A stretch of DNA of 64,000 nucleotides from Senegalia massiliensis (GTDB lineage: Bacteria; Bacillota; Clostridia; Tissierellales; SIT17): assembly GCF_009911265.1 (NCBI RefSeq), contig NZ_QXXA01000014.1, positions 1 to 64,000 of the forward strand, given 5' to 3'. Shown piece after piece: positions 35,926 through 56,490 of the stretch (positions within the stretch are counted from its first letter, which is position 1; each line of letters opens with the position of its first letter). The notes beneath the pieces are model-generated. The model had not been told where the DNA came from, made no database searches, and worked only from the letters and a program-made list of their open reading frames with translations. The position numbers were made by a program, and so were the translations under genes.

Positions 35926-35950
35926 AGAGAATCACCTCTAAAAAAGTATT

Positions 35951-36047: not shown

Positions 36048-36084
36048 TGCATCTGCTCATCTATTCACTTATTTATCTATTTAC

Positions 36085-36113: not shown

Positions 36114-36160
36114 TACTTTTTATATTTTAATTTCAAATATAGTCAGCTAAATTTTAAAAA

Positions 36161-36193
36161 AAGACCAGCTAAATTTTCACTTAAACTGGTCTT
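36161..36193 (-). terminator. Terminator after the flavodiiron protein gene
   Basis: AAGACCAG pairs with CTGGTCTT around a 17-base loop, with TTTTTAAAAT following on the minus strand. Confidence 0.6.
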
Positions 36194-36257
36194 AATAATA
36201 ATTGTATTCAATTTAATTTATATTTAATAATATAGAATTAATAATTAATATAATAAC

Positions 36258-38881: not shown

Positions 38882-38997
38882 TATATATCCTCCTTAAGGT
38901 TATTTCAGATATTATACCCTATATTGAGGAATTTTAAAAACTATTTATCAAAATAATATCAATAGATATTAAAAGTTATAAAAAGTTAAAAAACTCA

Positions 38998-39099
38998 CTA
39001 TGTTTTAACTTTGTCCTTAAGCAAGAACCTCCAATACACAGAGTATGGGATAATAGCACCAAATATTAAAAAGTACTTATTTATCTTTTCCTTGGGCAT
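38998..39099 (-). CDS. Possible 33-residue single-span peptide after the ABC permease gene
   Basis: An ATG at 39099 opens a 33-codon frame (MPKEKINKYFLIFGAIIPYS, VYWRFLLKDKVKT) with one hydrophobic segment and a basic tail. Upstream, a GGAGGGG site drives a different frame starting at 39115 (MRKHFNAQGKDK, 12 residues) that ends inside it. The two frames could be a coupled pair or one frameshifted small gene. It lies between the ABC permease stop and the next operon, so it could belong to the ABC operon. The evidence is a strong ribosome site and a membrane-like profile; no homologue is recognised. Confidence 0.35.
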   Translation of the reverse strand: MPKEKINKYFLIFGAIIPYSVYWRFLLKDKVKT

Positions 39100-39133
39100 T
39101 AAAATGTTTTCTCATACTTTCCCCTCCTATAAT

Positions 39134-40696: not shown

Positions 40697-40701
40697 TTGT
40701 C

Positions 40702-41409
40702 TTACACCTCCATAAAAAAAGCTTCCAAAGATTGATTACCTTTAACTGTTTCAGTAGGCCCGCTTGCAATCAGCTTGCCAGCCTTAATAACGGCAATTTT
40801 ATTGCAAAGCTTCTCTGCAACATCAAGAACATGTGTAGAAAAGAAAATTGCTCCACCCTTCGATACACATTCCTTCATTACCTGTTTCAATAAAAATGTT
40901 GCTTTAGGATCAAGCCCAACAAATGGTTCATCCAATATTAAAAGCTTAGGAGAATGAACTAAAGCAGAAATAATTGCAGTTCGTTGCTTCATCCCATGTG
41001 AATATGAAGATATAACATTCCCAAGGTTTAGAGTCATTTCAAATAAATCACTATATTTTTTAATTGATTGTATCGGTTGAGAAGTTGGAATGTTATATAA
41101 ATCTGCAATAAAGTTTATATATTGATAACCTGTCAAATGTTCATACAAATCTGGATTATCCGGAATATATGCAAGTATAGATTTACAAGCTAACGGGTCT
41201 TTCTTGATGGAATGACCGTCTATGATGATTTTCCCATAATCAAAATCGTGAATTCCTAATACTGCTTTGATTGTTGTTGTTTTTCCTGCTCCATTAGCTC
41301 CAATAAATCCAAAAATATCTCCTGACTCAATAGAAAGGGATAACCCATCAACTGCTTTCTTTTTATTCCCATAAATTTTTGTAAGATTTTTAATTTCTAA
41401 TATAGACAT
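40702..41409 (-). CDS. ABC exporter ATP-binding protein
   Basis: 235 residues. Walker A FIGANGAGKTTTI, signature SYSHGMKQRTAIISALV, Walker B KLLILDEPFVGLDP and switch His in FFSTHVLDVAE. It is the CcmA/YtrB-like type with a C-terminal ASGPTETVKGNQSLEAFFMEV. It starts 17 bases downstream of the operator and belongs to the same transcript as the permease. Confidence 0.93.
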   Translation of the reverse strand: MSILEIKNLTKIYGNKKKAVDGLSLSIESGDIFGFIGANGAGKTTTIKAVLGIHDFDYGKIIIDGHSIKKDPLACKSILAYIPDNPDLYEHLTGYQYINFIADLYNIPTSQPIQSIKKYSDLFEMTLNLGNVISSYSHGMKQRTAIISALVHSPKLLILDEPFVGLDPKATFLLKQVMKECVSKGGAIFFSTHVLDVAEKLCNKIAVIKAGKLIASGPTETVKGNQSLEAFFMEV

Positions 41410-41426
41410 AAATAAATCCCCCTTTT

Positions 41427-41443
41427 ACTGACATTTTGTCAGT
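41427..41443 (-). promoter_or_regulatory. TetR operator in front of the ABC exporter genes
   Basis: A 17-bp palindrome, ACTGACATTTTGTCAGT, between the TetR gene and the ATPase ribosome site. It is nearly identical to the sequence at 42132-42148. Confidence 0.7.
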
Positions 41444-41458
41444 TAATAATCTAAGAAT

Positions 41459-41479
41459 AACCAATGGAAAATACCATTG
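41459..41479 (-). terminator. Terminator after the TetR gene
   Basis: CCAATGG pairs with CCATTGG around a 6-base loop, followed on the minus strand by TTATTCTTAG; a weak, attenuator-like hairpin between the regulator and the exporter genes. Confidence 0.5.
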
Positions 41480-41485
41480 GATTTC

Positions 41486-42097
41486 TTAGGTATTGAAAAT
41501 AGATATTTCTGCACCTAATGTAGATTCTAATAACTTTTTGTATGCCACAATATAGTTTTCCTTCTCATTATCGGACAAAGCATTTACTGTAATAGAAACA
41601 AAGACGTAACCATTTATCAAAAAAGAAGCTGTTTGTGATGGATAGGATACATGAAACACACCTTCTGCAATACCTTGTTCAATAATATCTGTAAAATATA
41701 TTGATATTTTGCTGGAAACTTTATGAGCAAATCGATCCATTACATAACGATTTTGCTCCAAGTCAACAGTTTTTTGCAGCGTAACCATCTCAGCAGTAAT
41801 TGTATCTGGAGATATTAAAGTGGCTTCCACAAAAGAGCGAATTTTTTCTATTGCTGAATTTTCACCATAAGTAATCTCAGATAATCGCCGTAAAAGTGGT
41901 TCCGAATATCGCTCCACTAAACAATAGAGTATATCCTCCTTGTCTTTGAAATGATAATACAGCAAACCACGGGATATTTTAGCTTCCTCTATAATATTCT
42001 GTGTAGTTGTTTTTAAATATCCTTTTTTAATAAATAGACGCAAGGTAGCCTCCATAATTTCAGCTCTACGGACTTCTGGTTCTTTTACATCTCTCAT
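41486..42097 (-). CDS. TetR-family repressor of the ABC exporter
   Basis: 203 residues from the ATG at 42097, behind AGAGGTGG; an in-frame ATG at 42139 would place its first 14 residues inside the promoter and operator. N-terminal HTH: EATLRLFIKKGYLKTTTQNIIEEAKISRGLLYYHFKDKEDILYCLVERY. The C-terminal ligand domain is not diagnostic. It most likely represses itself and the downstream exporter through the two matching operators. Confidence 0.93.
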   Translation of the reverse strand: MRDVKEPEVRRAEIMEATLRLFIKKGYLKTTTQNIIEEAKISRGLLYYHFKDKEDILYCLVERYSEPLLRRLSEITYGENSAIEKIRSFVEATLISPDTITAEMVTLQKTVDLEQNRYVMDRFAHKVSSKISIYFTDIIEQGIAEGVFHVSYPSQTASFLINGYVFVSITVNALSDNEKENYIVAYKKLLESTLGAEISIFNT

Positions 42098-42131
42098 ACT
42101 ACCACCTCTATAATAATAGTATATAGCAACA

Positions 42132-42148
42132 ACTGACACTTTGTCAAT
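42132..42148 (-). promoter_or_regulatory. TetR operator overlapping the -35 element of the TetR gene
   Basis: ACTGACACTTTGTCAAT matches the operator at 41427-41443 at 15 of 17 positions. On the minus strand it contains TTGACA, with TATACT following at 18 bp, so a bound repressor would block the promoter. Confidence 0.7.
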
Positions 42149-42160
42149 AACTTGTTGTGA

Positions 42161-42598
42161 TTATTTAATTTCCTCAGCCAACTCCAAAATAATTCCTTCT
42201 GGTCCACGAACGTAGCATAGTTTATAAGCATTTTCGTAGTTTTGTATCTCACCAATAAGTCCTGTCCCTTCCTTTTTAAATTTGGCAACAATAGCTTCAA
42301 TATCATCAACAGCAAAGGAAATATGACGAATACCAAGAGTGTTTGCCAAAGGACGCTGTATGCCATTTTCATCTGATGGTGTGTGAAATTTTACTAGCTC
42401 TATATTTGCTTCACCATCTGATGTTCTAAGCATTACAACTTCCTCTCTAACCTCTTGAAGTCCTATTATTCGCTCTACCCACTCACCTTCTACTTCTCCT
42501 TCGCCTATCATTTCAAGACCTAGGTCAAGAAAAAATGCTTTCACAGCAGGAAGGTCATTAACAATTATACCTACATGATCTATTCTATGAATCTTCAT
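42161..42598 (-). CDS. VOC-family (glyoxalase-like) protein
   Basis: 145 residues, one vicinal oxygen chelate fold: IHRIDHVGIIVNDLPAVKAFFLDLGLEMIGEGE, ANIELVKFHTP, GIRHISFAVDDIEAIVAKF, YVRGPEGIILELAEEI. The His in DHVG, the Glu in ANIELV, the His in RHISF and the Glu in ILELAE are the four likely metal ligands. Methylmalonyl-CoA epimerase, glyoxalase and resistance proteins share this fold, and substrate cannot be assigned. It lies directly upstream of the TetR gene, separated by the operator. Confidence 0.9.
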   Translation of the reverse strand: MKIHRIDHVGIIVNDLPAVKAFFLDLGLEMIGEGEVEGEWVERIIGLQEVREEVVMLRTSDGEANIELVKFHTPSDENGIQRPLANTLGIRHISFAVDDIEAIVAKFKKEGTGLIGEIQNYENAYKLCYVRGPEGIILELAEEIK

Positions 42599-42739
42599 AT
42601 CTAATACCTCCTTGTTCTAAGATTTAAATTTATCATTTCCTACTTTCTTTTATAACTACCCTATCTAAATTTTTCTAAAACAAGATTTAAAATAAAGAAA
42701 TTCATTAAATGATTACAAAAAAACTAAGCCTATTGATAT

Positions 42740-43262
42740 AGATAAAAATAAAACAATAACACAACAGATTATCAAGTTATGCTAAAGAAAATGGCTAACC
42801 TTTAGAAGAAAAATAAAATATTAAAAAATTCTATATCCATATCCACAAAAAAATAGAATCAAAATTTTTATTTATTAAAAATTATAAAGATCAACATGAC
42901 ATTAAGTTAATGTGTAAAATAGTCGGTATTTCTAAAAGTTATTATTATAAATTCTTAAATAAAAAAGAAAGTAAAAGAAGCATTGAAAATAAAAAAATTA
43001 TTCCTTAAGTGGTAAAAGGAATTCCTATGACAATGCCTGTATAGAATCTTTTCATGATTCGTTAAAGAAAGAAGAAGTTAACCTAGTTATTTATTATGAT
43101 TATGATGCCGCAAGGCTAACTATATTTGAATACATTGAATCTTGGTACAATAGAAAGATAATTTACAGTAGGATTGGATATTTAACCCCTCAACAATATG
43201 AGGATAGTATTAAAAAAACTGCTTCGCACTATAGACTATGCCCATGCCGGGCACACAAATAA
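42740..43262 (+). pseudogene. Decayed IS3-family insertion sequence
   Basis: Fragments of transposase reading frames on the plus strand: an orfA-like tail near 42770-42835 (KKNKILKN coiled-coil type), an OrfB N-terminal stretch near 42877-43006 (FIKNYKDQHDIKLMCKIVGI, continuing SKSYYYKFLNKKESKRSIEN), then after a deletion the C-terminal part (RNSYDNACIESFHDSLKKEE ... FEYIESWYNRKIIYSRIGYL, TPQQYEDSIKK) up to a stop at 43262. Frames are broken by stops and the DDE core is missing, so it cannot move. A hairpin at 43261-43295 follows it. Confidence 0.8.
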
Positions 43263-43295
43263 ATACTCCCTCAACCTTAATTTGAGGGAGTATTT
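43261..43295. terminator. Hairpin at the end of the IS3 remnant
   Basis: AAATACTCCCTCAA pairs with TTGAGGGAGTATTT, perfect 14-bp stem with a 7-base loop and flanking T residues. Confidence 0.7.
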
Positions 43296-43374
43296 TATAC
43301 ACTATTAATAATACTATTGAAACAAATCAGATTTTTTCCAACTTTAAATTTCACTTCTATCAGTTAATTATAAT

Positions 43375-43596
43375 CTAATATTTATCATTACCATAATCCT
43401 TTTTGTTATGATTTTTAATCATTTTTATTACTACTGAAATAACAGCTATAATTGCAAATAAATATCCTATAGGTATAAGAAAAAATGGTTCAGATAATGT
43501 TCCATCTGATAAAATTTCAGAACCTATCAGTTTAAATGCAATAAAACATCCTAAACTAATTATTATTGAAATAATACTAAATAAATATTTTTTCAT
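43375..43596 (-). CDS. DUF3955-family two-helix membrane protein (copy 2)
   Basis: 73 residues. It has the DUF3955 loop GSEILSDGTLSEPFFLIPIG and two membrane segments, and it is close in sequence to copy 1 at 11652-11861 (shared MKKYLFSII...DGTLSEPFFLIPIG). Unlike copy 1, it has no DUF2975 or HTH gene beside it, and it stands between the IS3 remnant and the Bce-type transporter genes. The ribosome site is GGAGGG. Either a duplicated gene or an independent insertion. Confidence 0.8.
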   Translation of the reverse strand: MKKYLFSIISIIISLGCFIAFKLIGSEILSDGTLSEPFFLIPIGYLFAIIAVISVVIKMIKNHNKKDYGNDKY

Positions 43597-43705
43597 ATAT
43601 TTACCCTCCTTACACTCTTTAATTTATATGCATTTTTTGAAACAACAAGTTTTAATATTATCATAGAATCTTATAAAATTCATAAAAGAACTATAAGCTC
43701 TTATC

Positions 43706-45712
43706 TTAACTATTCTTAACTATATTTTTATATCCAGTATAAGCAGCGTATAAATAGGTCCCATATACTCCAATAACTATAATTCCTGTTATAAATATAG
43801 TCGGTCCAAGCTTGAACAGAAATACTAAACCTACATTTCTTGACAATTTACCTATTATTGCTAATGCTACTATAGAATGTACTATTGATAGCATTAGAGG
43901 TGCCATAAAATGTATTAGAATTTGAGTAAATATAGTTTTATTAATCATATTATTAGAAACACCAATTTTTTTGAGTGTCTTATATCTGCTTGCACTATCA
44001 CTTGCTTCTGTTAACTGTTGGATTGCTAATACTGCTGCACTAGCTATTAAAAATACAAATCCCAGATATACTCCTATATATAAATTTGTTCCTATAGCAC
44101 TTTTTGTTTCATTATATACTTGTATTTTAGTTTCTGCGCTTATAATAAAGCCATATTTATCTAAAATATCGCTACGGTTATAATCTACATTGGCAAATTT
44201 TTGTCTCAGCTTTTTAACATCTTCTTCTAGATCTTGTTTATTCATTTCATTTAGATTGTTTATATGCATAGTTGAATAACTTTTAGGCATTCTTTCTACA
44301 GCATCGTCTGGCACGATTGCTATTAAATTATACTCAATATCTTTTAAATCCATATCTTTGATTAAAGTATATTTATTCCCATTAATATTTATTTCATTTT
44401 TATTATTCATTAATTTGTTTAATGCTTGCTTCTCATTATTATCATTTGTTAACAGTAAAACTTCATTTTTTTCTAACTCTACTGTTGAATCTCCCTTTAA
44501 CTTTCTCATTTCATTGTACTGTGATACCTTTATAGTTTCTAATACCCCAACATATTTTTTAAGTCTCTCTTTTAACTCTTTATTTGAATATTCATTTAAT
44601 AAATCAGATACTTTAATTTTTGTATAGTATGCATCTAATACAGCATATTCATAGGACTGTCTTAAGTTAAAATCTACTGTTTTTAAAGCCTTTTCTATAT
44701 TTTGTACTTCTTGTTCGTCACTACCAACATTTAGTTCAATATTAGCATCAAAAGGTGATAATTTTTCTAATTCTTCTTCTAATTTGGACTTAATGCTTAA
44801 GCTTGATGATGAAATTACTATAGTGACAAATAACATGAGGCATATTATTCCCATTGATATAAAGTTTGTATTTATTTTATTACTAAACTGTTTTATAACA
44901 AATATATTTAACTTTTTTAAATATATTTGTTTATTTTTTTTCATTATAAATAAGATAAATCCAGCTAATCCAAAGAAGAATAATAGTGTACCGGCACCTC
45001 CCCATACTATAGACAGAGGAAAATTAATATCTTGAGGATTAGATGAATACTTCCATCCTAAATAGTAAGCTCTTGATAAAACACCTATAGATATAATGAA
45101 TATTGTAACTGAAATTACAGGATTTCTAACTTTTATTTCTTCGCTTTTCTTTGATGCATTTATCATATCAATTAGTTTATGCTTGGACACAGCTACTGTA
45201 TTAAATATCATAACTAAAATAAACATTGTACCAAAATATATGATAGTTTTTCCAATAGCATTGGTAGACATAATAAATTTATACTCTTCCATATCAAACT
45301 CAAACAATTTGCCTGTAATTACTGATATTCCTTGAGATAATATTATTCCTAGCAATAATCCTGTACCTAATGAAATGATGCCTACTATAAGGGTTTCATA
45401 AGTTAATATTCTAGATACTTTTTGTTTTGACATCCCTAAAGTAGTATATATTCCAAACTCTTTTTTCCTTTTTTTGACTAGAGCATTATTTGCATATATA
45501 ACTAGTGCACAAAAAATAACTGAAATAAATATAGATATATAGGATATTAATTTAACTAATATATCTATTTTATTTATATCTTCTATTACTGTTTGAGAAT
45601 TCATTGAATTAAAATTATAAAATATACACACTGCTAATGTAAGAGTTATAAAGTATATTGTATAATCTTTAAAACTCTTTTTTATATTATTAGTGGCTAT
45701 ATTAAAATACAT
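43706..45712 (-). CDS. Bce-type ABC permease (peptide antibiotic resistance)
   Basis: 668 residues from the ATG at 45712, chosen for its spacing to the GGAGGAG site (a previous ATG at 45721 touches that site). Ten membrane segments in the BceB/VraG order: one, then an FtsX domain with three, two more, a large extracytoplasmic domain of about 200 residues (about 310-520) and three C-terminal helices. N-terminal YFNIATNNIKKSFKDYTIYFITLTLAVCIFY and KKRKKEFGIYTTLGMSKQKVSRIL are hallmarks. It overlaps the ATPase gene by 11 bases. Confidence 0.93.
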   Translation of the reverse strand: MYFNIATNNIKKSFKDYTIYFITLTLAVCIFYNFNSMNSQTVIEDINKIDILVKLISYISIFISVIFCALVIYANNALVKKRKKEFGIYTTLGMSKQKVSRILTYETLIVGIISLGTGLLLGIILSQGISVITGKLFEFDMEEYKFIMSTNAIGKTIIYFGTMFILVMIFNTVAVSKHKLIDMINASKKSEEIKVRNPVISVTIFIISIGVLSRAYYLGWKYSSNPQDINFPLSIVWGGAGTLLFFFGLAGFILFIMKKNKQIYLKKLNIFVIKQFSNKINTNFISMGIICLMLFVTIVISSSSLSIKSKLEEELEKLSPFDANIELNVGSDEQEVQNIEKALKTVDFNLRQSYEYAVLDAYYTKIKVSDLLNEYSNKELKERLKKYVGVLETIKVSQYNEMRKLKGDSTVELEKNEVLLLTNDNNEKQALNKLMNNKNEININGNKYTLIKDMDLKDIEYNLIAIVPDDAVERMPKSYSTMHINNLNEMNKQDLEEDVKKLRQKFANVDYNRSDILDKYGFIISAETKIQVYNETKSAIGTNLYIGVYLGFVFLIASAAVLAIQQLTEASDSASRYKTLKKIGVSNNMINKTIFTQILIHFMAPLMLSIVHSIVALAIIGKLSRNVGLVFLFKLGPTIFITGIIVIGVYGTYLYAAYTGYKNIVKNS

Positions 45713-46469
45713 TATTAACATCTCCTCCCAACAGTGTCATTACTTCAATAATTCTATTGAAAAATTCTTTTCTAGAATCATTACCTCTAACTATCTCATT
45801 AAATATTTTACCATCTTTTATAAATAGTATCCTATTAGCATAACTTGCAGTGAAAGCATCATGGGTTACAAGTAATATAGTAGCTTCCAAATCTCTATTT
45901 AATTTCTCAAAAGATTCTAATAATAACCTTGCAGATTTGGAATCTAAAGCCCCAGTAGGTTCGTCGGCCAATATGAGTGATGGGTTAGTAACTATTGCCC
46001 TAGCGCAAGCTACTCTTTGCTGCTGTCCACCTGACATTTGGTAGGGATGTTTATTTAAAATATCTGAAATGCCAAGTGTTCCTGCAACTTTTTTTATTAA
46101 ACTATCTATTTCCTTTGGCTTTCTTTTCTGTATTGTTAAAGCTAAAGCTATATTTTCATAACCAGTTAATGTATCAAGCAAATTGAAATCTTGAAATATA
46201 AATCCTAACTCATCTCTCCTAAACTTATCTAGCTTTTTAGATTTTAATTTTGTAATCTCATGATTATTTATAGTAATATTACCAGTTGTTACGTTATCTA
46301 TTGTTGCAATGCAGTTAAGCAAAGTAGTTTTTCCACTTCCAGATGGTCCCATTATTCCAACGAACTCACCTTTATCCACCTTGAAGCTTATGCCATCTAA
46401 TGCTTTAGTTACAACTTCTTTTTTTCCATAATACTTTTCAATATTTTCTATTTTTAATATATTTTTCAT
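45702..46469 (-). CDS. Bce-type ABC ATPase
   Basis: 255 residues from the ATG at 46469, behind GGAGGATATAA. Walker A GIMGPSGSGKTTLLN, signature MSGGQQQRVACARAIV, Walker B SLILADEPTGALDS, H-loop LLVTHDAF. It is the MacB/BceA type that partners long FtsX-like permeases for peptide antibiotic detoxification and flux sensing. It is the first gene of a two-gene transcript; the kinase and regulator genes lie upstream, separated by a terminator. Confidence 0.94.
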   Translation of the reverse strand: MKNILKIENIEKYYGKKEVVTKALDGISFKVDKGEFVGIMGPSGSGKTTLLNCIATIDNVTTGNITINNHEITKLKSKKLDKFRRDELGFIFQDFNLLDTLTGYENIALALTIQKRKPKEIDSLIKKVAGTLGISDILNKHPYQMSGGQQQRVACARAIVTNPSLILADEPTGALDSKSARLLLESFEKLNRDLEATILLVTHDAFTASYANRILFIKDGKIFNEIVRGNDSRKEFFNRIIEVMTLLGGDVNNVF

Positions 46470-46768
46470 ATTTATATCCTCCATTCAACTTTATTGAATT
46501 TGCTAACTACCTTTTAATCTACCTTATAACATTATTATATTAGTCTATTAATAGATTACATATCGAATTAGCTTTCATTAAAGTTTCATTTTTGTAAGAT
46601 AATCTTTTGTTATAAGTTTTCCATTTGTACAAATCCTAATACAAATTTACCTAATGACTTACTTCCACTTCTTTAAGTGACATATATACACCTAGTACCT
46701 TTTTTATATGAGCATTTTGCCTTAAATCGTATAAAAAAGTTTAAAAGCAAATTTAAAGATTAAAAGAA

Positions 46769-46798
46769 AAAAGTGTGAGTATTTTAACTCACACTTTT
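46769..46798 (-). terminator. Terminator between the BceS-type kinase and the Bce ABC genes
   Basis: AAAAGTGTGAGT pairs with ACTCACACTTTT around a 6-base loop, perfect 12-bp stem with the minus-strand T tract. Confidence 0.75.
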
Positions 46799-47811
46799 CA
46801 ATTCAATAAATTAAATTTGCTTAATGGAAATATTATATTGACCTTTGTTCCTATCCCTAATTCAGATTTAATATTTATTTCTAAACCTAACTTATCACAA
46901 AGCTTTTTGCAAAGATATAATCCCATACCTGTAGATGTGTTATATTTTCTTCCATATTCTCCTGTAAAACCTTTTTCAAAAACTTTATTGATATCCTTCT
47001 CTGAAATTCCTATACCACTATCTTGAATTGTAAGTATTACGTTATTCTTATTAGTAGTTGAATATATCTTTATACTACCTCCTGTGGATTTTATATACTT
47101 GATTGAATTAGTTATAATTTGATTTAGTATAAACTCTACCCATTTTATATCACTATATACAACAGCATGTATTTCATCTAGCTGTAAATTTATTCTTTTA
47201 TTTATAAAATCTTTAGAATTTCTTTTAATAGTATTATTTATAGCTACTGATAAGTCAAACCTCTTTATTATATAATCTTTACTAACATCACTACTCCTTG
47301 AATAGTACAATGCCTGCTCTACAAATCCTTCTATTTTCTTTATTTCTTTGCCTATATTCTTTGTAATAAGACTTTTATTATTTTCTATAATCAACATACT
47401 AGATGAAATAGGTGTTTTAATTTCATGAACCCAAGTCTCAATATATTCTCTGTACTCTAACTGAAGATTTTTATAATAATTTACATGCTCATGCATTTCT
47501 TTATTACATGTTTTTAATATATCATAAAAAAGTTTTCCTTCTAAAAAATCTGTTTTTTCCATGATTTCTGGTAATAAATACTTTTTATCAAGACCTTGTA
47601 ATATTTCTTCCATATTATTATAATATTTTGCATATTTAAGAAACTCTATACTTATATAAACTGCTAAAGGTAAAAACCATATTATAAAAATTGAAAATAT
47701 AACAATACTTCTTATTTCCAGTATAGCTAATATTAACGCTAGAATTAAAAAAACTATAGAATTTACAAAAATGAATAAAAATCTTTCTTTTAAATATTCT
47801 TTTATACTCAT
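46798..47811 (-). CDS. Intramembrane-sensing histidine kinase (BceS-like)
   Basis: 337 residues. Two membrane segments (about 11-31 and 36-56) separated by only a few residues, so no extracellular sensor domain: the intramembrane-sensing type that receives its signal from the ABC permease. H-box WVHEIKTPISSSMLIIEN, N-box NQIITNSIKY, G-box GISEKDINKVFEKGF and GMGLYLCKKL. The ATG overlaps the regulator stop by 4 bases (ATGA). Confidence 0.93.
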   Translation of the reverse strand: MSIKEYLKERFLFIFVNSIVFLILALILAILEIRSIVIFSIFIIWFLPLAVYISIEFLKYAKYYNNMEEILQGLDKKYLLPEIMEKTDFLEGKLFYDILKTCNKEMHEHVNYYKNLQLEYREYIETWVHEIKTPISSSMLIIENNKSLITKNIGKEIKKIEGFVEQALYYSRSSDVSKDYIIKRFDLSVAINNTIKRNSKDFINKRINLQLDEIHAVVYSDIKWVEFILNQIITNSIKYIKSTGGSIKIYSTTNKNNVILTIQDSGIGISEKDINKVFEKGFTGEYGRKYNTSTGMGLYLCKKLCDKLGLEINIKSELGIGTKVNIIFPLSKFNLLN

Positions 47812-48476
47812 GGCATTATGTACCCTAAACCTCTTCTTGTTTGTATTACATCCTTTACACCTATATCTTCAAGGGTTTTTCTTAACCTTGTTACATTTAC
47901 AGATAGTGTATTATCATCAATAAAAACATCTGAGTTCCATAAGTATTCCATTAATTCTTCTCTAGATACTATAGTTCCTTTTTTCTTTATAAGATAAGAA
48001 AGTATCTTTATTTCATTCTTAGTTAATTGTTCGGTGTTTTCCTTATAAACAATACTACCATTTAATAGATTTAGTTTCATATCATTATAAGATAATATAT
48101 CACTAAGACTATTTTTGGAGGTTCTCTTCAAAACTGCTGAAATACGCGCTAAAAGTATTTGTGTATTATAAGGTTTTGTGATAAAATCATCTGCACCTAA
48201 ATTCATACTCATGAGCTCATCTGTTTCACTATCTCTACTTGTAACTACTATTATTGGCGTATCTAAATTTTTTCTAATCTCCCTGCATATATGATATCCA
48301 TCAAAGACAGGTAAATTTATATCTAGTAAAATTAGGTCAGCATCAGATTTATATATATATTCAACTATATTGTTAAAATAATCTGGAGCATCAATCTCAT
48401 AATCATATTTAGATAAAAATATTTTAAGTTCTTCTCTTATAATTTTAGTATCCTCTATTATAATAATTTTCTGCAT
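47808..48476 (-). CDS. BceR-like OmpR-family response regulator
   Basis: 222 residues from the ATG at 48476, behind GGAGGATAGAT; the longer frame to 48524 would include leader sequence and the ribosome site. Receiver: IIIIEDTKIIREEL, LILLDINLPVFDGYH, SRDSETDELMSMNLGADDFITKPYN. The winged helix has TRLRKTLEDIGVKDVIQTRRGLGYIMP. Probably activates the downstream ABC genes when the sensor complex detects a peptide antibiotic. Confidence 0.93.
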   Translation of the reverse strand: MQKIIIIEDTKIIREELKIFLSKYDYEIDAPDYFNNIVEYIYKSDADLILLDINLPVFDGYHICREIRKNLDTPIIVVTSRDSETDELMSMNLGADDFITKPYNTQILLARISAVLKRTSKNSLSDILSYNDMKLNLLNGSIVYKENTEQLTKNEIKILSYLIKKKGTIVSREELMEYLWNSDVFIDDNTLSVNVTRLRKTLEDIGVKDVIQTRRGLGYIMP

Positions 48477-48953
48477 ATCTATCCTCCAATATAAATCTCT
48501 GAGTATCCAAAAAGTCACTTTCATCTAATAGTTTATTAATGTATCACTTTGCTATTCATATATTACTTACTTAATTATATTTAATATCGCTGGGAAAAGG
48601 TATCTACATATTTGGATTTAGGTTAATAACTAAGAATTTAACTTATAGAAGTTAAGTGTAAATTACTTTTTTATAAATCTTTACATTATTATAACTAAAT
48701 TAAAATCAAATATCAACGACAAAAAGTTTTGGACTTTACACAAAATACTATACACTACCTATATCAAAACTAGTTTATATTACTTGTAATAAAAGAATAC
48801 ACATAATCTTTTATTATATTTTTTTGAGTTACTATTACTATAACCTTACAGTTTTTCTAAAATACAAAAAGGCTGAGTAAAAAATATTCAAATAAGTTAT
48901 TTTTTAAAATTTTATTCAAATTTGAGGGCATAATTTATATAAAAATAATTCCT
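48477..48953. other. Intergenic region upstream of the Bce regulator
   Basis: 477 AT-rich bases between the regulator start and the CPBP remnant. It should contain the regulator promoter. No gene, repeat or RNA was recognised. Confidence 0.4.
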
Positions 48954-49259
48954 ATGCTTTTTGGAGAAGAATTGATTACTATAATACCATTTTTAATAGT
49001 ATTGGAATTTAGTTATAAAAATTTAAATCTCTCTAGAAAAAGATCAATTATAACAGCTTGGATTGTTACTTCTTTACTTTTTGGAGCTATTCATTTGCCC
49101 ACATATAGTTGGAATATTATTCAAGCGATTTTAGGAATAGGAATTGTTAGAATAATTCTTACTTATCCATACATTAAAACAAAGAATATTTGGACTTCTT
49201 TGTTAGTTCATCTATTAAATGATTGGATTCTTTTTTTACCTGCTATATTTTTAGGATAG
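48954..49259 (+). pseudogene. Truncated CPBP-family intramembrane protease
   Basis: 101 residues from the only plausible ATG, which lacks a good ribosome site. The CPBP motifs are seen: GEE at residues 4-6, FGAIHLP (His) and HLLNDW (His, Asn/Asp), in the normal order. The family normally has 220-300 residues with several helices before the first motif; the Arg of EExxxR is absent, and upstream the frame stays open for only about 25 more codons without a start. It is probably the C-terminal remnant of a protease (bacteriocin immunity or self-protection type). CPBP genes often accompany bacteriocin systems, which fits the flanking peptide transport modules. Confidence 0.6.
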
Positions 49260-49647
49260 GATGCAAGGACTTATTATTAGCTCCTAAGATAACTACATGA
49301 TAACGGTCATAGGTGTGAAGGACCTGCATCATATCTGAGTTTTCTATCATAATTATGTTAGAAATTATGTCAGCTGACTATGTAAATTAGTTTAACAATA
49401 TTAGGATTCAGAGTCATTAGTAAATTTAAGTCCTAAACAATATAAATTACATAACCTTAAAAAATATCTAAATAAGTGTTGACAATTCACTTCTTTTCCA
49501 TCAACTTTGTATTTTTTCCAATGCCCTAACTAAAGTATTTATATTTTTAATACCTTTATAATCTGAATCCTTTCTTCTTATATATCATTGTCGAGAGCCC
49601 TTAAAAACATTACTTAACTATTTCTGTGGAATATCTATCTATAAATA
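49260..49647. other. Intergenic region with probable decayed sequence
   Basis: 388 bases with no intact gene. On the minus strand 49480-49570 has a short protein-like stretch (RKDSDYKGIKNINTLVRALE) that ends at a stop, too short to name. The rest shows no repeat or RNA. Confidence 0.35.
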
Positions 49648-52050
49648 CTAATGTGCACCATGACGCAATCTTGAAACCAGACTTTCCTTCTGAAATAATC
49701 TTACTAAAATACTAGAAACAACTATAGGCACCATGACAATAATCATAATATATATTAAAAGATATCCTATTGGAAAATGGTAATGAAGATAAGTTGCACC
49801 AAAGTGCTGCAATACTCTTATTAATCCATATCCTAATGCTGTACCAAATATTAAAGTTATTATTAAATTTCCAAAAGACAAACCTAAGCCTTCAAATTGA
49901 ATCATTCTTATCAATTGTTTATGGCTTAATCCAATAGATTGGAGCATTGCAAATTCTTTTTGTCTCGCAATAATATTAGTTATTATTGTATTGACTAGAT
50001 TAATTAAACTAAATAAAATGATAAAACCACTTAATCCTATTATTACTTTATTTATTAAATCAAATGATTGCTTATCTTCTATTAAATTTTGTTTTAATGT
50101 ACCCATTTCAAGCAAAGGACTTTCTTCTATTATATTAGAAAGTTTCTTTTCTACTTTATCTCCTTCCTTCTCAAAATTATTTACAGATATAACTAATGTA
50201 TCTATTGTATTAATGCCTGGAAATAATTGTTCTAACTTTTCAATTGGTAAGATAAACCACCCAGAGTTATATGTGACATTACTAGATTTATCTATAGACC
50301 CTATGACCTTAAATGTTTTTTCAATTTCCTTATTTCCATCAAAGTACCTGAATTTAACCTTATCTCCCATGTCAAATTTCCACCCATAGATTTCTTCCGC
50401 TACTTTATTATGTGCTACAAGGATTTCATCATTTTCTATCATCCTATTATAATCAAAAGTCCCTTCTACCAATGTTTTGTTTATTATATCAATATCTTCT
50501 CTCTTAAATGCTGAAAAATAGTCCCCTTTATTGACTACATCCTTATAATCATATTTTACAGATGTACGATTAAATTCTATAATATCATCAACCTCTGGTA
50601 TTGACTTTATCTTTTTCACTAATTCTTCATTCATTGGGTTTTTCAATTGAACTCCTGTTATGCCCTTATCAATAGTCTGTACCGTATTATAATCAAAGGA
50701 AATAATATATTCTCCCAGTTCATACATACCTTGCCTTGAATATTCTTCTAAAGAAGTTGATACTATCATAGTTGTGCTCATAATAAATAAAGCTCCACCT
50801 ATTCCAAGGGAAACTAATGTCAAAAAAGATTTGTTCCTATTCCTTCCTATGCTAATTCTTGCCATGGAAAAAGGAGACAATTTTCTATGTAATTCCTTAG
50901 TTTCCTTTAATCCTTTGCCTTCAAACCCTGCAAATCTAGATGCCTCAACAGGTGAAATAGAAGAAGCCACTTTTGCTGGTTTTTGAACTGAAATAATTAT
51001 GGTAATGAATTCTGCTATTGCTATGATTAGACTTAGAATAGAAGTATGTTTAAAACTCCATCCTTCTGGAATAAGCCAGTATGAAATTATCCAGGATATC
51101 AGAAGTCCTATAGGAGTTCCCATTAAAAACATAATTGTCCCTTCTCTTCTTACCATTGCTTTAATTTGTTTTTCAGAAGTACCTATGGTTCTCAACTGAC
51201 CAAATCTTTGAATATTATCTAAAACTGAAATATAGAATATACTGTACACAACCAATATGCTGACCAATAGAATTCCTAGAGATACTACTATTATAACTAA
51301 AGCATCTTGTTTAGATAGGGTTAAGGAATTAGCAAAAAAATTGTTTGGATTTATGTCTTTTCTTTCAATTCCTGCATCTTTCCCAATTCTTCTTAGGCTG
51401 TCTAAAAACTCACCTTCTGACATTATAGATGCATTTTTTATTTTACAAAAAACAATATAAGGTTCATCCTTCATCTGCTCTCCTTTTTCAGAATACGCCT
51501 TGGAAAATAGGATTGAATTGATACTGGAATTCTCATTACCTTCCTCATAAAATCCACTAATTACAAATTCTTCCTCTTTGCCATCTAAAAATTTTATCTT
51601 TATAGAATCTCCTATATTTTCTGCATCAGGAAATAATTCTAATATAGGTCTATCTACTACAACCTCATTAAATTTTTCTGGATAATTTCCCTCAGCTATT
51701 GTTTTTGTCTTTATACTCTTTGTATCTTTTTCAAAATAAACTGGATGAATCATTTTATTTTCCATCTTAAAACTACTAACACTCTTTCCTAATGTTAAGA
51801 AATCTATTTCATCAGAAGCTTTTAACTTCTCAATCTGTTCTTCATTGACATTCTCATAAATAACATGCTGTACCGTATCTAACTGCTTTTTAGTTTTCTG
51901 TTCCCTTGCTGATTGAAAAAGAGACATGACTCCAAGTAATGAAACAGATAATATAATAGTTATTAATATAAAAACATTTCTTGTCCTATTAAATTTCACG
52001 CTCCTACTTGCTAATTTTTGTATGACTTTTCGATTATTATTTGCTATCAT
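49648..52050 (-). CDS. FtsX-family ABC permease of the second export module
   Basis: 800 residues from the ATG at 52050 (an earlier start at 52098 overlaps the ATPase end and its ribosome site). Two FtsX domains and about eight membrane segments with two large extracytoplasmic regions: one early (residues 45-250) and one central (about 440-660). IARQKEFAMLQSIGLSHKQLIRMIQFEG and FGQLRTIGTSEKQIKAMVRREG mark the two FtsX domains. It pairs with the ATPase encoded 10 bases upstream. The layout fits antimicrobial peptide or lipid export/sensing. It differs from the Bce-type permease in having two FtsX domains. Confidence 0.9.
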   Translation of the reverse strand: MIANNNRKVIQKLASRSVKFNRTRNVFILITIILSVSLLGVMSLFQSAREQKTKKQLDTVQHVIYENVNEEQIEKLKASDEIDFLTLGKSVSSFKMENKMIHPVYFEKDTKSIKTKTIAEGNYPEKFNEVVVDRPILELFPDAENIGDSIKIKFLDGKEEEFVISGFYEEGNENSSINSILFSKAYSEKGEQMKDEPYIVFCKIKNASIMSEGEFLDSLRRIGKDAGIERKDINPNNFFANSLTLSKQDALVIIVVSLGILLVSILVVYSIFYISVLDNIQRFGQLRTIGTSEKQIKAMVRREGTIMFLMGTPIGLLISWIISYWLIPEGWSFKHTSILSLIIAIAEFITIIISVQKPAKVASSISPVEASRFAGFEGKGLKETKELHRKLSPFSMARISIGRNRNKSFLTLVSLGIGGALFIMSTTMIVSTSLEEYSRQGMYELGEYIISFDYNTVQTIDKGITGVQLKNPMNEELVKKIKSIPEVDDIIEFNRTSVKYDYKDVVNKGDYFSAFKREDIDIINKTLVEGTFDYNRMIENDEILVAHNKVAEEIYGWKFDMGDKVKFRYFDGNKEIEKTFKVIGSIDKSSNVTYNSGWFILPIEKLEQLFPGINTIDTLVISVNNFEKEGDKVEKKLSNIIEESPLLEMGTLKQNLIEDKQSFDLINKVIIGLSGFIILFSLINLVNTIITNIIARQKEFAMLQSIGLSHKQLIRMIQFEGLGLSFGNLIITLIFGTALGYGLIRVLQHFGATYLHYHFPIGYLLIYIMIIVMVPIVVSSILVRLFQKESLVSRLRHGAH

Positions 52051-52060
52051 AACTTTTCCC

Positions 52061-52729
52061 CTATCTATTATAAATTTTTCCATCTTCAATTCTGACAATC
52101 CGATCAGCTAATTGAGCAATTTCGTTATTATGGGTAATCATTACAATAGTTTGATTAAATTGTTTACTTGTTCTTTTTAATAATCCCAATACTTCAGAAC
52201 TGGTTTTACTATCTAAATTTCCAGTAGGCTCATCTGCTAAAATAATAGAGGGCTTAGTGGCCAAAGCTCTTGCTATTGCTCCCCTTTGTTGCTCTCCACC
52301 TGATAAGTAATTAGGAAATCTTCGTTTTTTATCTCCTAAATGTAGTAGTTCAATTACTTCTTCTATATATTCCTCATCAATTGTTTCTCCATCTAAGTCC
52401 AATGGCAAAACAATATTTTCATAAAGATTTAGCATAGGTACTAGATTAAAATTTTGGAAAATAAATCCTACATTTCTTCTTCTAAAAATAGTTAATTCTT
52501 CATCAGACAGCAGAGAAATATCCTGTCCAGTTACAATCACTTGTCCTGTAGTAGGATTATCTAACCCACCTAACATATTTAACAAAGTAGACTTCCCTGA
52601 TCCCGAAGTTCCTACAATTGCAAGAAACTCACCTTTTTTTACTGTTATATTTACTCCATCTATGGCTTTTACAATATTATGTTCTTCTCCATAATATTTT
52701 TTTAAATTTATAGCTTCTAATATATTCAT
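52061..52729 (-). CDS. ABC ATPase of the second export module
   Basis: 222 residues, MacB-like. Walker A IVGTSGSGKSTLLNML, signature YLSGGEQQRGAIARALA, Walker B IILADEPTGNLDS, H-loop VMITHNN. First gene of the transporter transcript, 131 bases after the stop of the kinase gene with a terminator in between. Confidence 0.94.
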   Translation of the reverse strand: MNILEAINLKKYYGEEHNIVKAIDGVNITVKKGEFLAIVGTSGSGKSTLLNMLGGLDNPTTGQVIVTGQDISLLSDEELTIFRRRNVGFIFQNFNLVPMLNLYENIVLPLDLDGETIDEEYIEEVIELLHLGDKKRRFPNYLSGGEQQRGAIARALATKPSIILADEPTGNLDSKTSSEVLGLLKRTSKQFNQTIVMITHNNEIAQLADRIVRIEDGKIYNR

Positions 52730-52812
52730 TATATCTTCCTCCTTTTCTTAAGATAACTTTATCAAGTAAATCTAACACAAATATAACAGAATATATTTTT
52801 AATTAAAAAAAA

Positions 52813-52850
52813 CAATACCAATTCTAACTTTTTTGTTAGAATTGGTATTG
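52813..52850 (-). terminator. Terminator between the second kinase and its ABC genes
   Basis: CAATACCAATTCTAAC pairs with GTTAGAATTGGTATTG, a perfect 16-bp stem with a 6-base loop, followed on the minus strand by TTTTTTTT. Confidence 0.85.
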
Positions 52851-52860
52851 AGCATATTAT

Positions 52861-53880
52861 TTATAAATCATTTGGTAAAAAAACTGAAAAGGTAGAACCT
52901 TCTCCAACAATAGATGATACTTTTATATACCCCTCTTGTTTTTGAATAATTTCTCTTGATAAATAAAGTCCAATGCCTACTCCTTCTTTATCATAACTAC
53001 TTTCTTCTCTAAAAAATCGTTGAAATATCTTACCAAAATTTTTTTCCAGAATACCTACTCCCTGGTCAATAATATCAACTTTGGTGTACATCTCCCATTC
53101 TTGCACTTTAATCTCTATTTTTGTCTTATCTAAGGAGTATTTAATTGCATTTTCTAATATATTAGACAAAGCTTCTGATGTCCATTTTTTATCATGTGAT
53201 AAATTATAATTCTCTGGACACTCTACAATAATTTCTATACTTTTATTCTCTGCCTTTACTGTGATTTCCGATATAGCTTCAGCAATAGTGTCAAATAAAT
53301 TTGATGGGGTCTTATTTAACTGAATTAATCCTGTTTCCAACCTTGATGATTTAATCATAGAATCTAATAGAAAGCCTAGTTTGTCCAGTTGCTCATCCAT
53401 AGACTTTAATAGTTTTTCTTTCTCTTCTTTAGATACTTCTTCCTTAACTAAAGCTGATTGCAGTATCTTTAAATTAGTCATAGGAGTCTTTACCTGATGA
53501 GAAACATCTGAAATTAGATTTTGCAACTTCTCTTTTTCTTTTAATCCTTGTAAAGATTCTGCCTTCCATATTTCTGATAATCGAAGAATTTTTTGATTTA
53601 TTTTTGAATCAAAAGTTTCATCTAATGTTTTTAATTTGTTAATCTTTTGATGGTCTCTATTGATTAAATAAATTAGTGAATAATTTAAAGTATTGATATA
53701 ATCCATATATTTACTAATAGTTTTTTTCTTATTGTAATAAAAAATCAATATAATGGCAAAATAAGTAATTAATGAAAATAATAATAATGTTACATTATAA
53801 AAATATAAGGTTAAAAAAACATGATATATAATACCTATTATAATTAAAATAATCATTTCAAAAAAATCTCTATTCCTCAT
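52861..53880 (-). CDS. Intramembrane-sensing histidine kinase (second module)
   Basis: 339 residues from the ATG at 53880, which is better spaced to GTAGGAG than the ATG at 53886. Two membrane helices (about 8-24 and 30-48) with a very short loop, so no extracellular sensing domain. H-box SDVSHQVKTPMTNLKIL, N-box NILENAIKYS, G boxes GVGILEKNF and GVGIGLYLSREI. The short sensor suits a kinase that is signalled by the neighbouring ABC permease. It overlaps the regulator gene by 11 bases. Confidence 0.92.
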   Translation of the reverse strand: MRNRDFFEMIILIIIGIIYHVFLTLYFYNVTLLLFSLITYFAIILIFYYNKKKTISKYMDYINTLNYSLIYLINRDHQKINKLKTLDETFDSKINQKILRLSEIWKAESLQGLKEKEKLQNLISDVSHQVKTPMTNLKILQSALVKEEVSKEEKEKLLKSMDEQLDKLGFLLDSMIKSSRLETGLIQLNKTPSNLFDTIAEAISEITVKAENKSIEIIVECPENYNLSHDKKWTSEALSNILENAIKYSLDKTKIEIKVQEWEMYTKVDIIDQGVGILEKNFGKIFQRFFREESSYDKEGVGIGLYLSREIIQKQEGYIKVSSIVGEGSTFSVFLPNDL

Positions 53881-54556
53881 AGGCATCTCCTACCCACTGA
53901 TAGCCCATTCCATAGATTGTCTTAATATATTTTTTATCTTTAGTTTCAATCTTAGACCTAATTCGGCTAACCATCATAGTTAAAGCATTTTCGTCCACAT
54001 ATTTTTCATTTTCATCCCATAGCTTTTCCAATAATAAGCTTCTCGTTAGTACCATTTTATAGTTTATAACAAATAAATATAATAGGTTAAACTCTGCAGT
54101 AGTCAATTCAATATTTTTTCCTTGTATCATAGCTGTACGTTTGGTGAAATTCAAAATCAAATTTCCATCATCATAAATATTCCCTGTATTCTTTATACTG
54201 GTACTCTTTAACCAAATCTCTACTTTTTTAAGAAAGATGCTAACATGAAATGGTTTTGTAATATAATCCTCTGCTCCCAATTCGTAACCCTTCAACATAT
54301 CACTTTCCATGTCATTTGCAGTTAAAAATATAATAGGTATTGTTGTTTTACTCCTACACATTTTACATAGTTCAAAACCGTTTCCATCTGGAAGGTTTAT
54401 ATCTAATATAATCAAATCAAATTTACCTTTTGAAAGATAGTCTTTAGCAGTTGCTACATTATGAGCAGAGATTACTTCATATCCTTCCATTGTTAGGTGA
54501 AAAGCTAAAGTTTTATTTAACAAACGATCATCTTCTACTAATAATATTTTTTTCAT
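53870..54556 (-). CDS. OmpR-family response regulator (second module)
   Basis: 228 residues. Receiver: LLVEDDRLLNKTL, LIILDINLPDGNGFEL, IIFLTANDMESDMLKGYELGAEDYITKPFH. The winged helix has TMMVSRIRSKIETKDKKYIKTIYGMGYQW. It resembles the first module regulator in layout and sits in the same order relative to its kinase, so the two modules look like separate copies of one design. Confidence 0.92.
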   Translation of the reverse strand: MKKILLVEDDRLLNKTLAFHLTMEGYEVISAHNVATAKDYLSKGKFDLIILDINLPDGNGFELCKMCRSKTTIPIIFLTANDMESDMLKGYELGAEDYITKPFHVSIFLKKVEIWLKSTSIKNTGNIYDDGNLILNFTKRTAMIQGKNIELTTAEFNLLYLFVINYKMVLTRSLLLEKLWDENEKYVDENALTMMVSRIRSKIETKDKKYIKTIYGMGYQWVGDAYEE

Positions 54557-55235
54557 TCGCTTTACCTTCCTTATGGTATTTTAATCAATAAATCTTTGAC
54601 ACTTCTAATACTAATATGTCAATAAAATTAACATGTGGTCCTATATAGTTTCCTATACAACCTTTTAATTATAAATCTCTAGGATAGAGCTTCAGAAATC
54701 TAATTTATGTATATCTTATGCTCTTGTCATTATTATAGCATATTCCCCGCAGGCTAGTTCGGATAGAAATTGAGCACTTTTGTTATGATTTTAGTTTATT
54801 TTCATGTTTTAAATATAAATTAAGAGAGAATTAAGCTTATATTTAATTCTCTCTTATTCTGTTATTTACAACTTTTTATTTTATTTCTTTTTATAACTAC
54901 CTTATCTAAAGTCATTTGAAACAAAATTAAAAATATCATGATAAAAACCAGTGGGGATAGAATATATTTTTGCTCTACATGCCTTGAGAAGATAATAAAG
55001 ATGATAGTTGAATACTATATCTCCTTGAAGAAAAAGCTTATTGTTTAACAAGGACAATTTTTTTATTTTTATTATAGCGACAAAAATATAATTGTAGGTA
55101 GTTATATTCTAAAATAAAAAGAAGACTCAGAATTAAATCCAAGTCAACCTAATAAATAATACTTATTCATCCTCATACTCCATTAGTATTCACAAAAATA
55201 TACCAACTTAGGTTTACCCCATAGTGCTGCACAAA
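54557..55235. other. Long intergenic region with a terminator and possible IS-related fragments
   Basis: 679 bases without an intact gene. A hairpin TAAGAGAGAATTAA/TTAATTCTCTCTTA sits at 54821-54856. From about 54885 a stretch of some 50 bases (TTATAACTACCTTATCTAAA and following AT-rich DNA) resembles the sequence next to the IS3 remnant at 42647-42700. A GTAGTTAT at about 55095 is the inverse of the ATAACTAC at 54893. These look like debris from mobile DNA, not genes. Confidence 0.45.
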
Positions 55236-55781
55236 CTATTCTTTATTCTCTACTTCTTTATCGAAAAAAGAACCATAGAAAGTAGTCTGTGATAGATTCA
55301 GACGTTTATTATGATTAGAATGTGGAACTGCTTCATTGCTAGGATAACCGAGCAATAGCAACGCGACAGGAATGATATTTGACGGAATATCAAAAGTTTT
55401 TATTATAATATCTGGATTAAAATGCCCTACCCATGTAGAACCTAACCCTAAGTTTGTTGCCTGTAGCATCATGTGTGTTGCAACAATGCTTGAATCAATA
55501 TCCCCACTATCCTTATTATCAAATTTTCTTTTCCAGCTTGAATTTCTATCATAGCAAACTAAAAGAGCCAAACTTTGATTAAACTTATAGGGTGTACAAA
55601 GGCTTAGTTTAGATAGATCTTCCTTATTATCTAGAACAAGGATTCGTTGTGGCTGATAATTAACAGCAGTGGGAGCTACTCGTCCCGCCTCAAGTATTAA
55701 ATTCAATTTTTCTTTTTCAACTTTTTTATCACTAAATTTCCTAACAGAGTATCTCTTTTCTGCTAATTCTAAAAAATCCAT
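55236..55781 (-). CDS. Nitroreductase-family protein
   Basis: 181 residues from the ATG at 55781, behind AAAGGAG; 14 codons of upstream open frame lack such a site. Motifs: AEKRYSVRKFSDKKVEKEKL (FMN phosphate contact), AGRVAPTAVNYQPQRILV, GLGSTWVGHFN and VALLLLGYPSNEAVPHSN. FMN-dependent reductase of nitroaromatic or quinone-like substrates. It is divergent from an HxlR-family gene, the common arrangement for regulated nitroreductases. Confidence 0.94.
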   Translation of the reverse strand: MDFLELAEKRYSVRKFSDKKVEKEKLNLILEAGRVAPTAVNYQPQRILVLDNKEDLSKLSLCTPYKFNQSLALLVCYDRNSSWKRKFDNKDSGDIDSSIVATHMMLQATNLGLGSTWVGHFNPDIIIKTFDIPSNIIPVALLLLGYPSNEAVPHSNHNKRLNLSQTTFYGSFFDKEVENKE

Positions 55782-55909
55782 ATCACATTCTCCTTTAATT
55801 AGAGTTATATTTGACTTTGACAAGTATAGTGTATATTATTATATTAAGTTCTTCAAGTATGAACATTTTTGTTATATACTAAACTTTTTGTAAGTATTGA
55901 GGTGATATT

Positions 55910-56242
55910 ATGGATTTTAATAGTAAGTACGGAAAATGTCCAATATACTACACGATTTCAAAAATCCAAGGAAAATGGAAATGGGCTATTTTATATAAAC
56001 TCTATAAATCTAAAGTAATTCGCTACAATAAACTTTGGAATGATTTGAAACCCATAGCTCATAGAACGTTAAGCAAGCAGCTTAAAGAACTTGAATCAGA
56101 TGGATTAGTTCATCGAGAACAGTATAATGAAGTTCCACCAAGAGTTGAGTACTCTCTTACAAATGATGGACAAACCCTTTCTCCCATTCTTGAATTGATG
56201 TCTGACTGGGGATCTGAACGCATAAATAGCGATATAAAATAA
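55910..56242 (+). CDS. HxlR-family transcriptional regulator
   Basis: 110 residues, single winged helix: KCPIYYTISKIQGKWKWAILYKLYKSKVIRYNKLWNDLKPIAHRTLSKQLKELESDGLVHREQYNEVPPRVEYSLT. The Cys in the N-terminal KCPIY sequence is the conserved HxlR Cys involved in aldehyde or redox sensing in relatives. Divergent from the nitroreductase gene; GAGGTGATAT precedes its ATG. Confidence 0.94.
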   Translation: MDFNSKYGKCPIYYTISKIQGKWKWAILYKLYKSKVIRYNKLWNDLKPIAHRTLSKQLKELESDGLVHREQYNEVPPRVEYSLTNDGQTLSPILELMSDWGSERINSDIK

Positions 56243-56490
56243 GAAAAGTCAATAAAGACTCCTACAGTTTGATTGACTCTGCTATTATCTTCCATCATTT
56301 TAATAATTATGATCTTTTGGTCTTTTACATTGATTAAGTTGATTAAGGTTTCCTCTTTGCATTTCAGAAAAAACAACAGAAAATGAAATCGAATTACCCT
56401 ACATCATCTATGTTTCACCCTAAAAAATGGGTGTTTTCCAGCCTGGTTTTTGCCTGTTTTTCATTTCAAAACTACAACATAATACCATTT

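Follow-up and report, generated by a model that had tools for sequence, protein, structure and literature searches.

Introduction

In the BceRS-BceAB and PsdRS-PsdAB systems of Bacillus, the genes for a response regulator, a sensor kinase, an ATP-binding cassette (ABC) ATPase and a permease follow one another in this order, with an operator located 5' of the ATPase gene. Excerpts of PMC5786555 describe an external domain of about 200-250 residues between transmembrane (TM) segments 7 and 8 of Bce-type permeases and a loop of about 25 residues in BceS-type kinases, and excerpts of three further papers concern the operator consensus of BceR-type regulators, TNACA-N4-TGTAA (PMC9020739), the GraR operator (PMC3128592) and the BceAB-S structure (PMC10314905). 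ABC and two-component genes also occur as cargo of Clostridium difficile transposons, e.g. Tn6104 and Tn6115, according to an excerpt of PMC3158075. Here, we describe a 64,000-nucleotide stretch of Senegalia massiliensis DNA (the window, which is part of contig 14; the genome comprises 3.1 Mb in 53 contigs), in which two such gene sets, module A (43706-48524) and module B (49648-54556), lie head to tail on the minus strand, with a fragment of a CPBP-type (Rce1-like) protease gene between them on the opposite, plus strand. We consider it likely that these are two independent, self-regulated defence modules carried as cargo of one variable site, module A being of the Bce type and module B a mobile set with a MacB/YtrF-like permease, and that the CPBP piece is unrelated to both; within this reading, the signalling route, the peptide substrates and a gain rather than a loss of the block are what we infer. 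No publication on such a tandem, or on a CPBP gene adjoining such modules, was found by a search that covered the top-ranked papers and few subscription journals.

Two complete modules in a variable block

Both modules contain a full set of four genes. In module A, the gene for the OmpR-type response regulator (47808-48524; PF00072 and PF00486) is followed by those for the sensor kinase (46798-47811; PF02518), the ATPase (45702-46484; PF00005, 1.1e-35, with Walker A, signature and Walker B undamaged) and the permease (43706-45721), and the same order is found in module B for the OmpR-type regulator (53870-54556; PF00072 and PF00486), kinase (52861-53886; PF00512 and PF02518), ATPase (52061-52729; PF00005, 8.9e-35, motifs undamaged) and permease (49648-52050). 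Each protein showed its expected Pfam domain above the cut-off, with the exception of the module A kinase, which matched HATPase_c without a HisKA match; both permeases carry two FtsX stretches (PF02687), and the kinase and receiver motifs of both modules are likewise undamaged. An earlier reading of this DNA made without database searches (the sequence-only reading) had proposed two complete sets at 43706-54556, which our results bear out for all eight genes; it had called them back to back, whereas they stand in tandem on one strand.

Comparison with the genome of a sister species (G003), whose RpoB is 98.3% identical to that of the present genome (G000), placed both modules in a variable block of 17.5 kb (38954-56477) flanked by ndk and a methyltransferase gene. 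By blastn synteny, window position 38953 corresponds to G003:C1:1003054 and 56478 to G003:C1:1000928, so that the two flanks are 2.1 kb apart in G003, and the longer pieces matching between the two genomes are 92-98% identical. G003 has no module B, and at this site it carries unrelated DNA with a gene for a single 439-residue protein containing three consecutive Ribonuc_L-PSP (RidA) stretches (L168:1658-2977, i.e. G003:C1:1001657-1002976). The S. massiliensis genome itself yields 12 FtsX matches on 8 proteins, a background against which the pairing of A and B may be chance; outside the modules, they belong among others to a further Bce-type set (L098) and to two more permeases with two domains (L099 and L100).

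Assignment of module A to the Bce type

The 671-residue permease of module A matched the solved structures of BceB (1.4e-27) and PsdB (2e-27), the PsdB match covering residues 7-631 and the best BceB stretch residues 9-303. Its hydropathy profile shows nine segments above the threshold, compared with ten TM helices in the Bce type, and a possible tenth near residues 20-38 by eye only; a gap at 306-548 corresponds to an external domain of 243 residues, followed by three segments, which fits the size of the external domain in the Bce type. The kinase matched BceS (4.9e-33 over residues 23-331) and, along its full length and below the cut-off, the NCBIfam model SapS. By hydropathy, its TM segments at 12-30 and 35-53 are 4 residues apart, and thus its loop is shorter than that described for BceS-type kinases.

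A predicted BceR-like operator, TTACA-AAAA-TGAAA (46584-46597, minus strand), lies 113-114 nt 5' of the ATPase start with one mismatch to the consensus, and a terminator-like hairpin is found 3' of the kinase gene (46768-46799, minus strand). Operator matches with at most one mismatch were present in six of seven regions 5' of the ATPase gene (shuffle mean 0.5; 0 of 1000 shuffles reached six), and the seventh region, L068, has two mismatches. The match is situated 114-117 nt 5' of the ATPase start in the module A relatives L064 and L065 and at 73 nt in L062, and in L063 and L061 it precedes a small gene that itself precedes the ATPase gene. Because the window contains 16 TNACA-like matches with one mismatch on its two strands, including those at 48681 and 52773 near other intergenic places of the modules, the prediction draws on the kept position and not on the match by itself. 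The ATPase upstream regions of L066 and L067, which have no adjacent kinase gene and stand outside the count of seven, gave no operator match. The small genes (L063:8048-8467 and L061:1674-2090) encode 138-139 residues with one N-terminal hydrophobic stretch by eye; the L063 protein had no Pfam match, and no counterpart was noticed in the window.

When the genomes of the order were surveyed with at most four candidates scored per genome, the module A permease was found at E<=1e-60 in 10 of 249, its own genome included, and the relatives were 31-42% identical over their full length, with one partial match at 53%. Taken together, the gene order, the homologies to BceB, PsdB and BceS and the predicted operator 5' of the ATPase gene identify module A as a Bce-type module, which agrees with the sequence-only reading. 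Module A is nevertheless far apart in sequence from the Bacillus systems; a function in peptide sensing and export is well supported by its family membership, and its substrate is presumed on the same basis.

Module B and its MacB/YtrF-like permease

The open reading frame (ORF) of the module B permease comprises 816 codons from a TTG, and the ATG at 52050 gives 800 residues, the length adopted here because the corresponding codon is the start in its relatives L011 and L046; the proposed second permease of about 800 residues with two FtsX domains is thereby confirmed. Its hydropathy segments are arranged as 4+4, with one external domain per half (about 205 and 238 residues), each following the first TM segment as in MacB/YtrF-like permeases, and it does not have the one external domain between TM7 and TM8 of the Bce type. 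A profile of 15 sequences searched against the PDB matched YtrF (1.2e-19) and MacB (8e-13) as well as LolF and LolC, whereas the matches to BceB (2e-6) and PsdB (4e-7) were weak and confined to the last 130-150 positions. The kinase, which has HisKA and HATPase_c domains, carries two TM segments about 2 residues apart, a short loop like that of BceS; it matched BceS at 5e-14 over residues 21-338, and other kinases matched better (best 2.5e-27). Judged by its permease, which is MacB/YtrF-like, module B is not of the Bce type. Compared with MacB- and YtrF-type exporters, with which it shares the profile matches, the 4+4 segments and the two external domains, module B differs in having the duplicated permease on a single chain and its own two-component system, whose kinase lacks an external domain.

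The gene order of module B is unchanged in all six close relatives, and the kinase-ATPase intergenic regions of the seven close loci have in common a 16-pair hairpin, then T residues, and then a direct repeat. In the window, these are a terminator hairpin 3' of the kinase gene (52813-52850, minus strand) and a predicted regulator box, TGTTATATTT / TGTTAGATTT, with 11-bp spacing (52768-52788, minus strand). The 11-bp-spaced repeat occurs 5' of the ATPase gene in seven of seven close loci (shuffle mean 0.27, maximum two of seven), although these regions are related (mean column identity 86%), so that the counts are not independent and the case for the box is weakened. In the hairpin, 96.4% of 112 cells are paired, and changes on both sides occur in 4 of 16 pairs; one pair is unpaired in three of the seven sequences and another in one. 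Four of five summary measures exceeded the shuffles, the exception being the number of further pair types (4 versus 4.5). The same box is absent from six more distant module-B-like intergenic regions, where other 11-bp repeats (L097 and L106), weak ones (L107 and L105) or none (L104 and L051) were seen, and the region 5' of the module B regulator gene is not conserved. Since a terminator and then a repeat precede the ATPase gene, the ABC genes of module B would sit behind their own promoter, and they are probably controlled by the module's own regulator.

Distribution of module B

A search at E<=1e-100 with at most four candidates scored per genome showed permeases 73-78% identical to that of module B in 6 of the order's 248 other genomes, and the three congeners had none; at 1e-30, one congener (G002) showed two relatives of 28% identity. 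In a sample of the phylum, with at most two candidates scored per genome, 7 of 397 other genomes matched at E<=1e-50, all with 25-29% identity. Permease identity does not follow RpoB identity. For the syntenic pair L045/L011 (G207 versus G211), identity is 91.6% for RpoB and 75.3% for the permease, and for another pair the values are 95.8% and 73.6% (G236 versus G238), but between the present genome and G211 they are 79.2% and 78.1%. As the permease of G207 and G211 changes faster than RpoB under plain descent, the 78.1% identity between G000 and G211 argues for transfer. Genes of mobile elements were found near several relatives, namely an integrase-core transposase (L045), TnpB (L046), a serine recombinase (L047) and a DDE transposase (L049), and MobA/MobL and integrase genes lie near a module-B-like set of Agathobacter rectalis (L097); inspection by eye of the ORFs around L011 and L048 revealed none. 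We read this as horizontal spread followed by some vertical descent, a view suggested by the sequence comparisons. The locus resembles the clostridial conjugative and mobilisable transposons (Tn6104 and Tn6115, as excerpted from PMC3158075) in that exporter and two-component genes appear as accessory cargo, and it differs from them in that the only mobile-element trace in the 17.5-kb block is the scar of an IS3-family element, with neither an integrase nor a relaxase recognised.

This distribution also bears on what module B does. Its structural relatives by sequence, YtrF, MacB, LolF and LolC, have differing substrates, and it could be argued that module B is an envelope-maintenance machine of the MacB/YtrF superfamily, or one handling lipids or lipoproteins, and not a peptide-defence system. 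We regard this alternative as unlikely but serious, for the patchy spread and the mobile-element genes near several relatives fit accessory resistance better than core upkeep. Peptide sensing and export by module B, suggested by its architecture and distribution, is therefore plausible. Going further, module B may represent a class of mobile peptide-defence cassettes in which a MacB/YtrF-type exporter serves as the sensor for a kinase without an external domain and a direct-repeat operator stands between a terminator and the ABC genes; this is a speculative proposal, which we would rate as rather improbable at present.

The CPBP fragment between the modules

The CPBP fragment is a 3'-only remnant of 132 codons from stop to stop (48861-49259), including an ORF of 101 residues (48954-49259). 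As the sequence-only reading had stated, it belongs to the CPBP family: it matched PF02517 at positions 31-93 of 93 with 48.8 bits (cut-off 22.4), and it thus shares the C-terminal half and the three motifs with the CPBP endopeptidases. The EE, FxxxH and HxxxN-or-D motifs, which we take as markers of the family, appear here as EE, FGAIH and HLLND, and the arginine after EE is absent, as it is in the aligned relatives. Because 26 intact relatives are 228-253 residues long, about the first 100 residues of the fragment are missing compared with full-length members. No N-terminal piece was found above chance anywhere in the window, the best match (E 0.025) being inside the module A kinase gene. 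As no such piece exceeded chance, either around 43 kb or in the rest of the window, we rejected the idea that module A had inserted into a CPBP gene. In the 2.1-kb segment that G003 has at the site, 35 residues of the fragment matched weakly (E 0.025), which we took as chance.

Beyond the fragment, 120 bp past its stop codon, an IS3-family element has left a scar of its 3' end (49379-49489, plus strand), which consists of a transposase C-terminus with a broken frame and the element end. Over 114 bp, this scar is 75% identical (E 8e-9) to the terminal part of a Peptoclostridium gene annotated as IS3 transposase. Comparison of 48500-49700 with phage DNA gave no match, no relative of the fragment was confirmed among viral contigs, and two short read-outs beside the fragment had no Pfam match above the cut-off.

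None of the three congeners has a relative of the fragment at E<=1e-5. Of the 248 other genomes of the order, 25 carry relatives at E<=1e-8, which are 34-48% identical and confined to one other family; this survey gave 27 loci besides its own, of which L015, with no single ORF over the match, was left out of the 26. None was found at E<=1e-15 in the 397 other genomes of the phylum. Fourteen plasmid records carry relatives of 33-47% identity, and in the two plasmid contexts read (Paracoccus and Enterococcus) no A- or B-type module stands beside the CPBP gene. One relative, L072:7441-7896 (G153), also looks broken, being split into an ORF of 151 residues and another frame of 107.

The sequence-only reading had taken the locus for a bacteriocin-immunity island in which a CPBP immunity protease once worked with both exporters and has since decayed. 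The position of the fragment between two modules makes this tempting, and some bacteriocin loci do encode CPBP-type proteins (SilX, in the excerpt of PMC9298176). The surroundings of related genes point elsewhere. Five of the 27 relatives were read with wider surroundings; four follow genes for a small regulator, an ABC ATPase and short permeases, and one follows metK. Pfam supports the operon of L069 (GntR, ABC_tran and three ABC-2 permeases), dnaJ next to the CPBP gene of L070 and metK at L071, the operon contents of L070, L072 and L073 were judged by eye and by ATPase similarity, and the other relatives had flanks of about 1.5 kb or less. Using a broad CPBP profile, we found no such gene in the six close module-B loci or in seven module-A relatives scanned out of nine found, one of the seven had flanks of 1.5 kb only. 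Among 26 A- and B-type loci of 5 to 20 kb each, this profile detected one clear gene, at L105; an earlier, narrower profile had detected none in the same 26, a misleading negative as it missed the L105 gene. The L105 gene (L105:11074-11919) speaks for the island: it is intact and lies directly upstream, on the same strand, of the regulator gene of a distant module-B-like set, whose kinase has a HAMP domain. Its protein does not align with our fragment, however, and it thus makes a link between CPBP proteins and such modules possible in general, not for the fragment here. Furthermore, no bacteriocin precursor was recognised by eye among ORFs of at least 60 residues at 41-57.5 kb (shorter ORFs were not searched). 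We thus rejected a CPBP protein as a partner of either module, given the lack of a congener relative, the other contexts and the close loci without such a gene. A lost immunity protease is unlikely, and the bacteriocin-immunity island as a whole improbable; most probably, the fragment beside the IS3 scar is debris of unrelated origin within a variable site.

Other features of the window

Further genes of the 17.5-kb block encode a nitroreductase, an HxlR regulator, a protein of the glyoxalase fold and an additional ABC exporter, whose ATPase and large permease are accompanied by a TetR-type regulator (39134-42139). A small DUF3955 protein is encoded at 43375-43596, just downstream of module A; in this region, a stretch of 177 bp is 78% identical in G003 at another syntenic position. 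Outside the block, genes of the mevalonate route are found at 3653-9398, with a diphosphomevalonate decarboxylase identified by Pfam, and GHMP-type kinases and an FMN-dependent isomerase-like protein recognised partly by eye. Most clostridia use the other isoprenoid route. The window has no Rfam matches and no tRNAs, and its base composition shows no clear shift by eye. Promoter-like sites are not commoner than in shuffles (82 versus a mean of 90.0), and terminator-like sites are (7 versus 2.5).

Discussion

The results are consistent with a mechanism in which modules A and B would be adjacent since both are cargo of a variable chromosomal site. Each kinase, being nearly without an external loop, would read the state of its own ABC transporter and phosphorylate the OmpR-type regulator, which would in turn activate the ATPase and permease genes through a promoter of their own located 3' of the terminator. 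Module A would provide Bce-type target protection or export against cell-envelope-active peptides, and module B, as a horizontally spread cassette whose MacB/YtrF-like permease has two external domains, may act against such peptides as well. The CPBP piece would be the end of an unrelated gene left beside the IS3 scar, with no role.

Several observations weigh against this reading. Several stretches of the contig have no match in G003 (e.g. 21700-24918 and 31431-36262); the 17.5-kb block is the largest of them, and its absence was judged on one sister genome, which cannot decide between gain and loss. The flanks of module B are common to same-family pairs, on both sides in L048/L049 and upstream in L045/L011, and one gene is common to L046 and L049 at 3 to 6 kb from the module. 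The gene for the peroxide stress protein yaaA lies 0.3 kb from module B in L048 (L048:12059-12898), 1.8 kb in L049 (L049:13500-14255) and 11.4 kb in the window (37519-38274, just outside the variable block), which may reflect an old neighbourhood common to these loci, insertion at the same kind of site or mere chance. The tree of the module B permease is star-like, with one starred fork of four, and an old shared locus with many losses remains conceivable. The CPBP remnant, for its part, retains all three catalytic motifs together with its open frame, and it may yet give a short translated product.

A functional link between modules A and B, with cross-talk making them a single regulatory unit (e.g. 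one as the sensor and the other as the exporter), is suggested by their adjacency on the same strand, similar architecture and a predicted regulator box before each ABC pair, but it is very improbable, given that the boxes differ (inverted-type versus direct repeat), each module has a full signalling set, and the two were not found together in the six close module-B loci or the module-A relatives read (flanks of 1.5 to about 12 kb).

In conclusion, both modules are real, complete and of known kinds and lie at a variable site, and their presumed substrates are peptides. The peptide-antibiotic defence island of the sequence-only reading is thus upheld in part: the family of module A and the absence of the block from the sister species favor it, for module B it is plausible, and a lost protease is not supported. 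The protease fragment, which invited a tempting story of a lost immunity factor, is best read as variable-site debris. In addition, this work describes a cassette of a non-Bce exporter and a two-component system that is scattered among anaerobic Firmicutes, and with the operator predicted for module B, a simple reporter would suffice for seeking its inducer. If the module B exporter does act as the sensor for its kinase, transporter-coupled sensing would have arisen outside the Bce family too.

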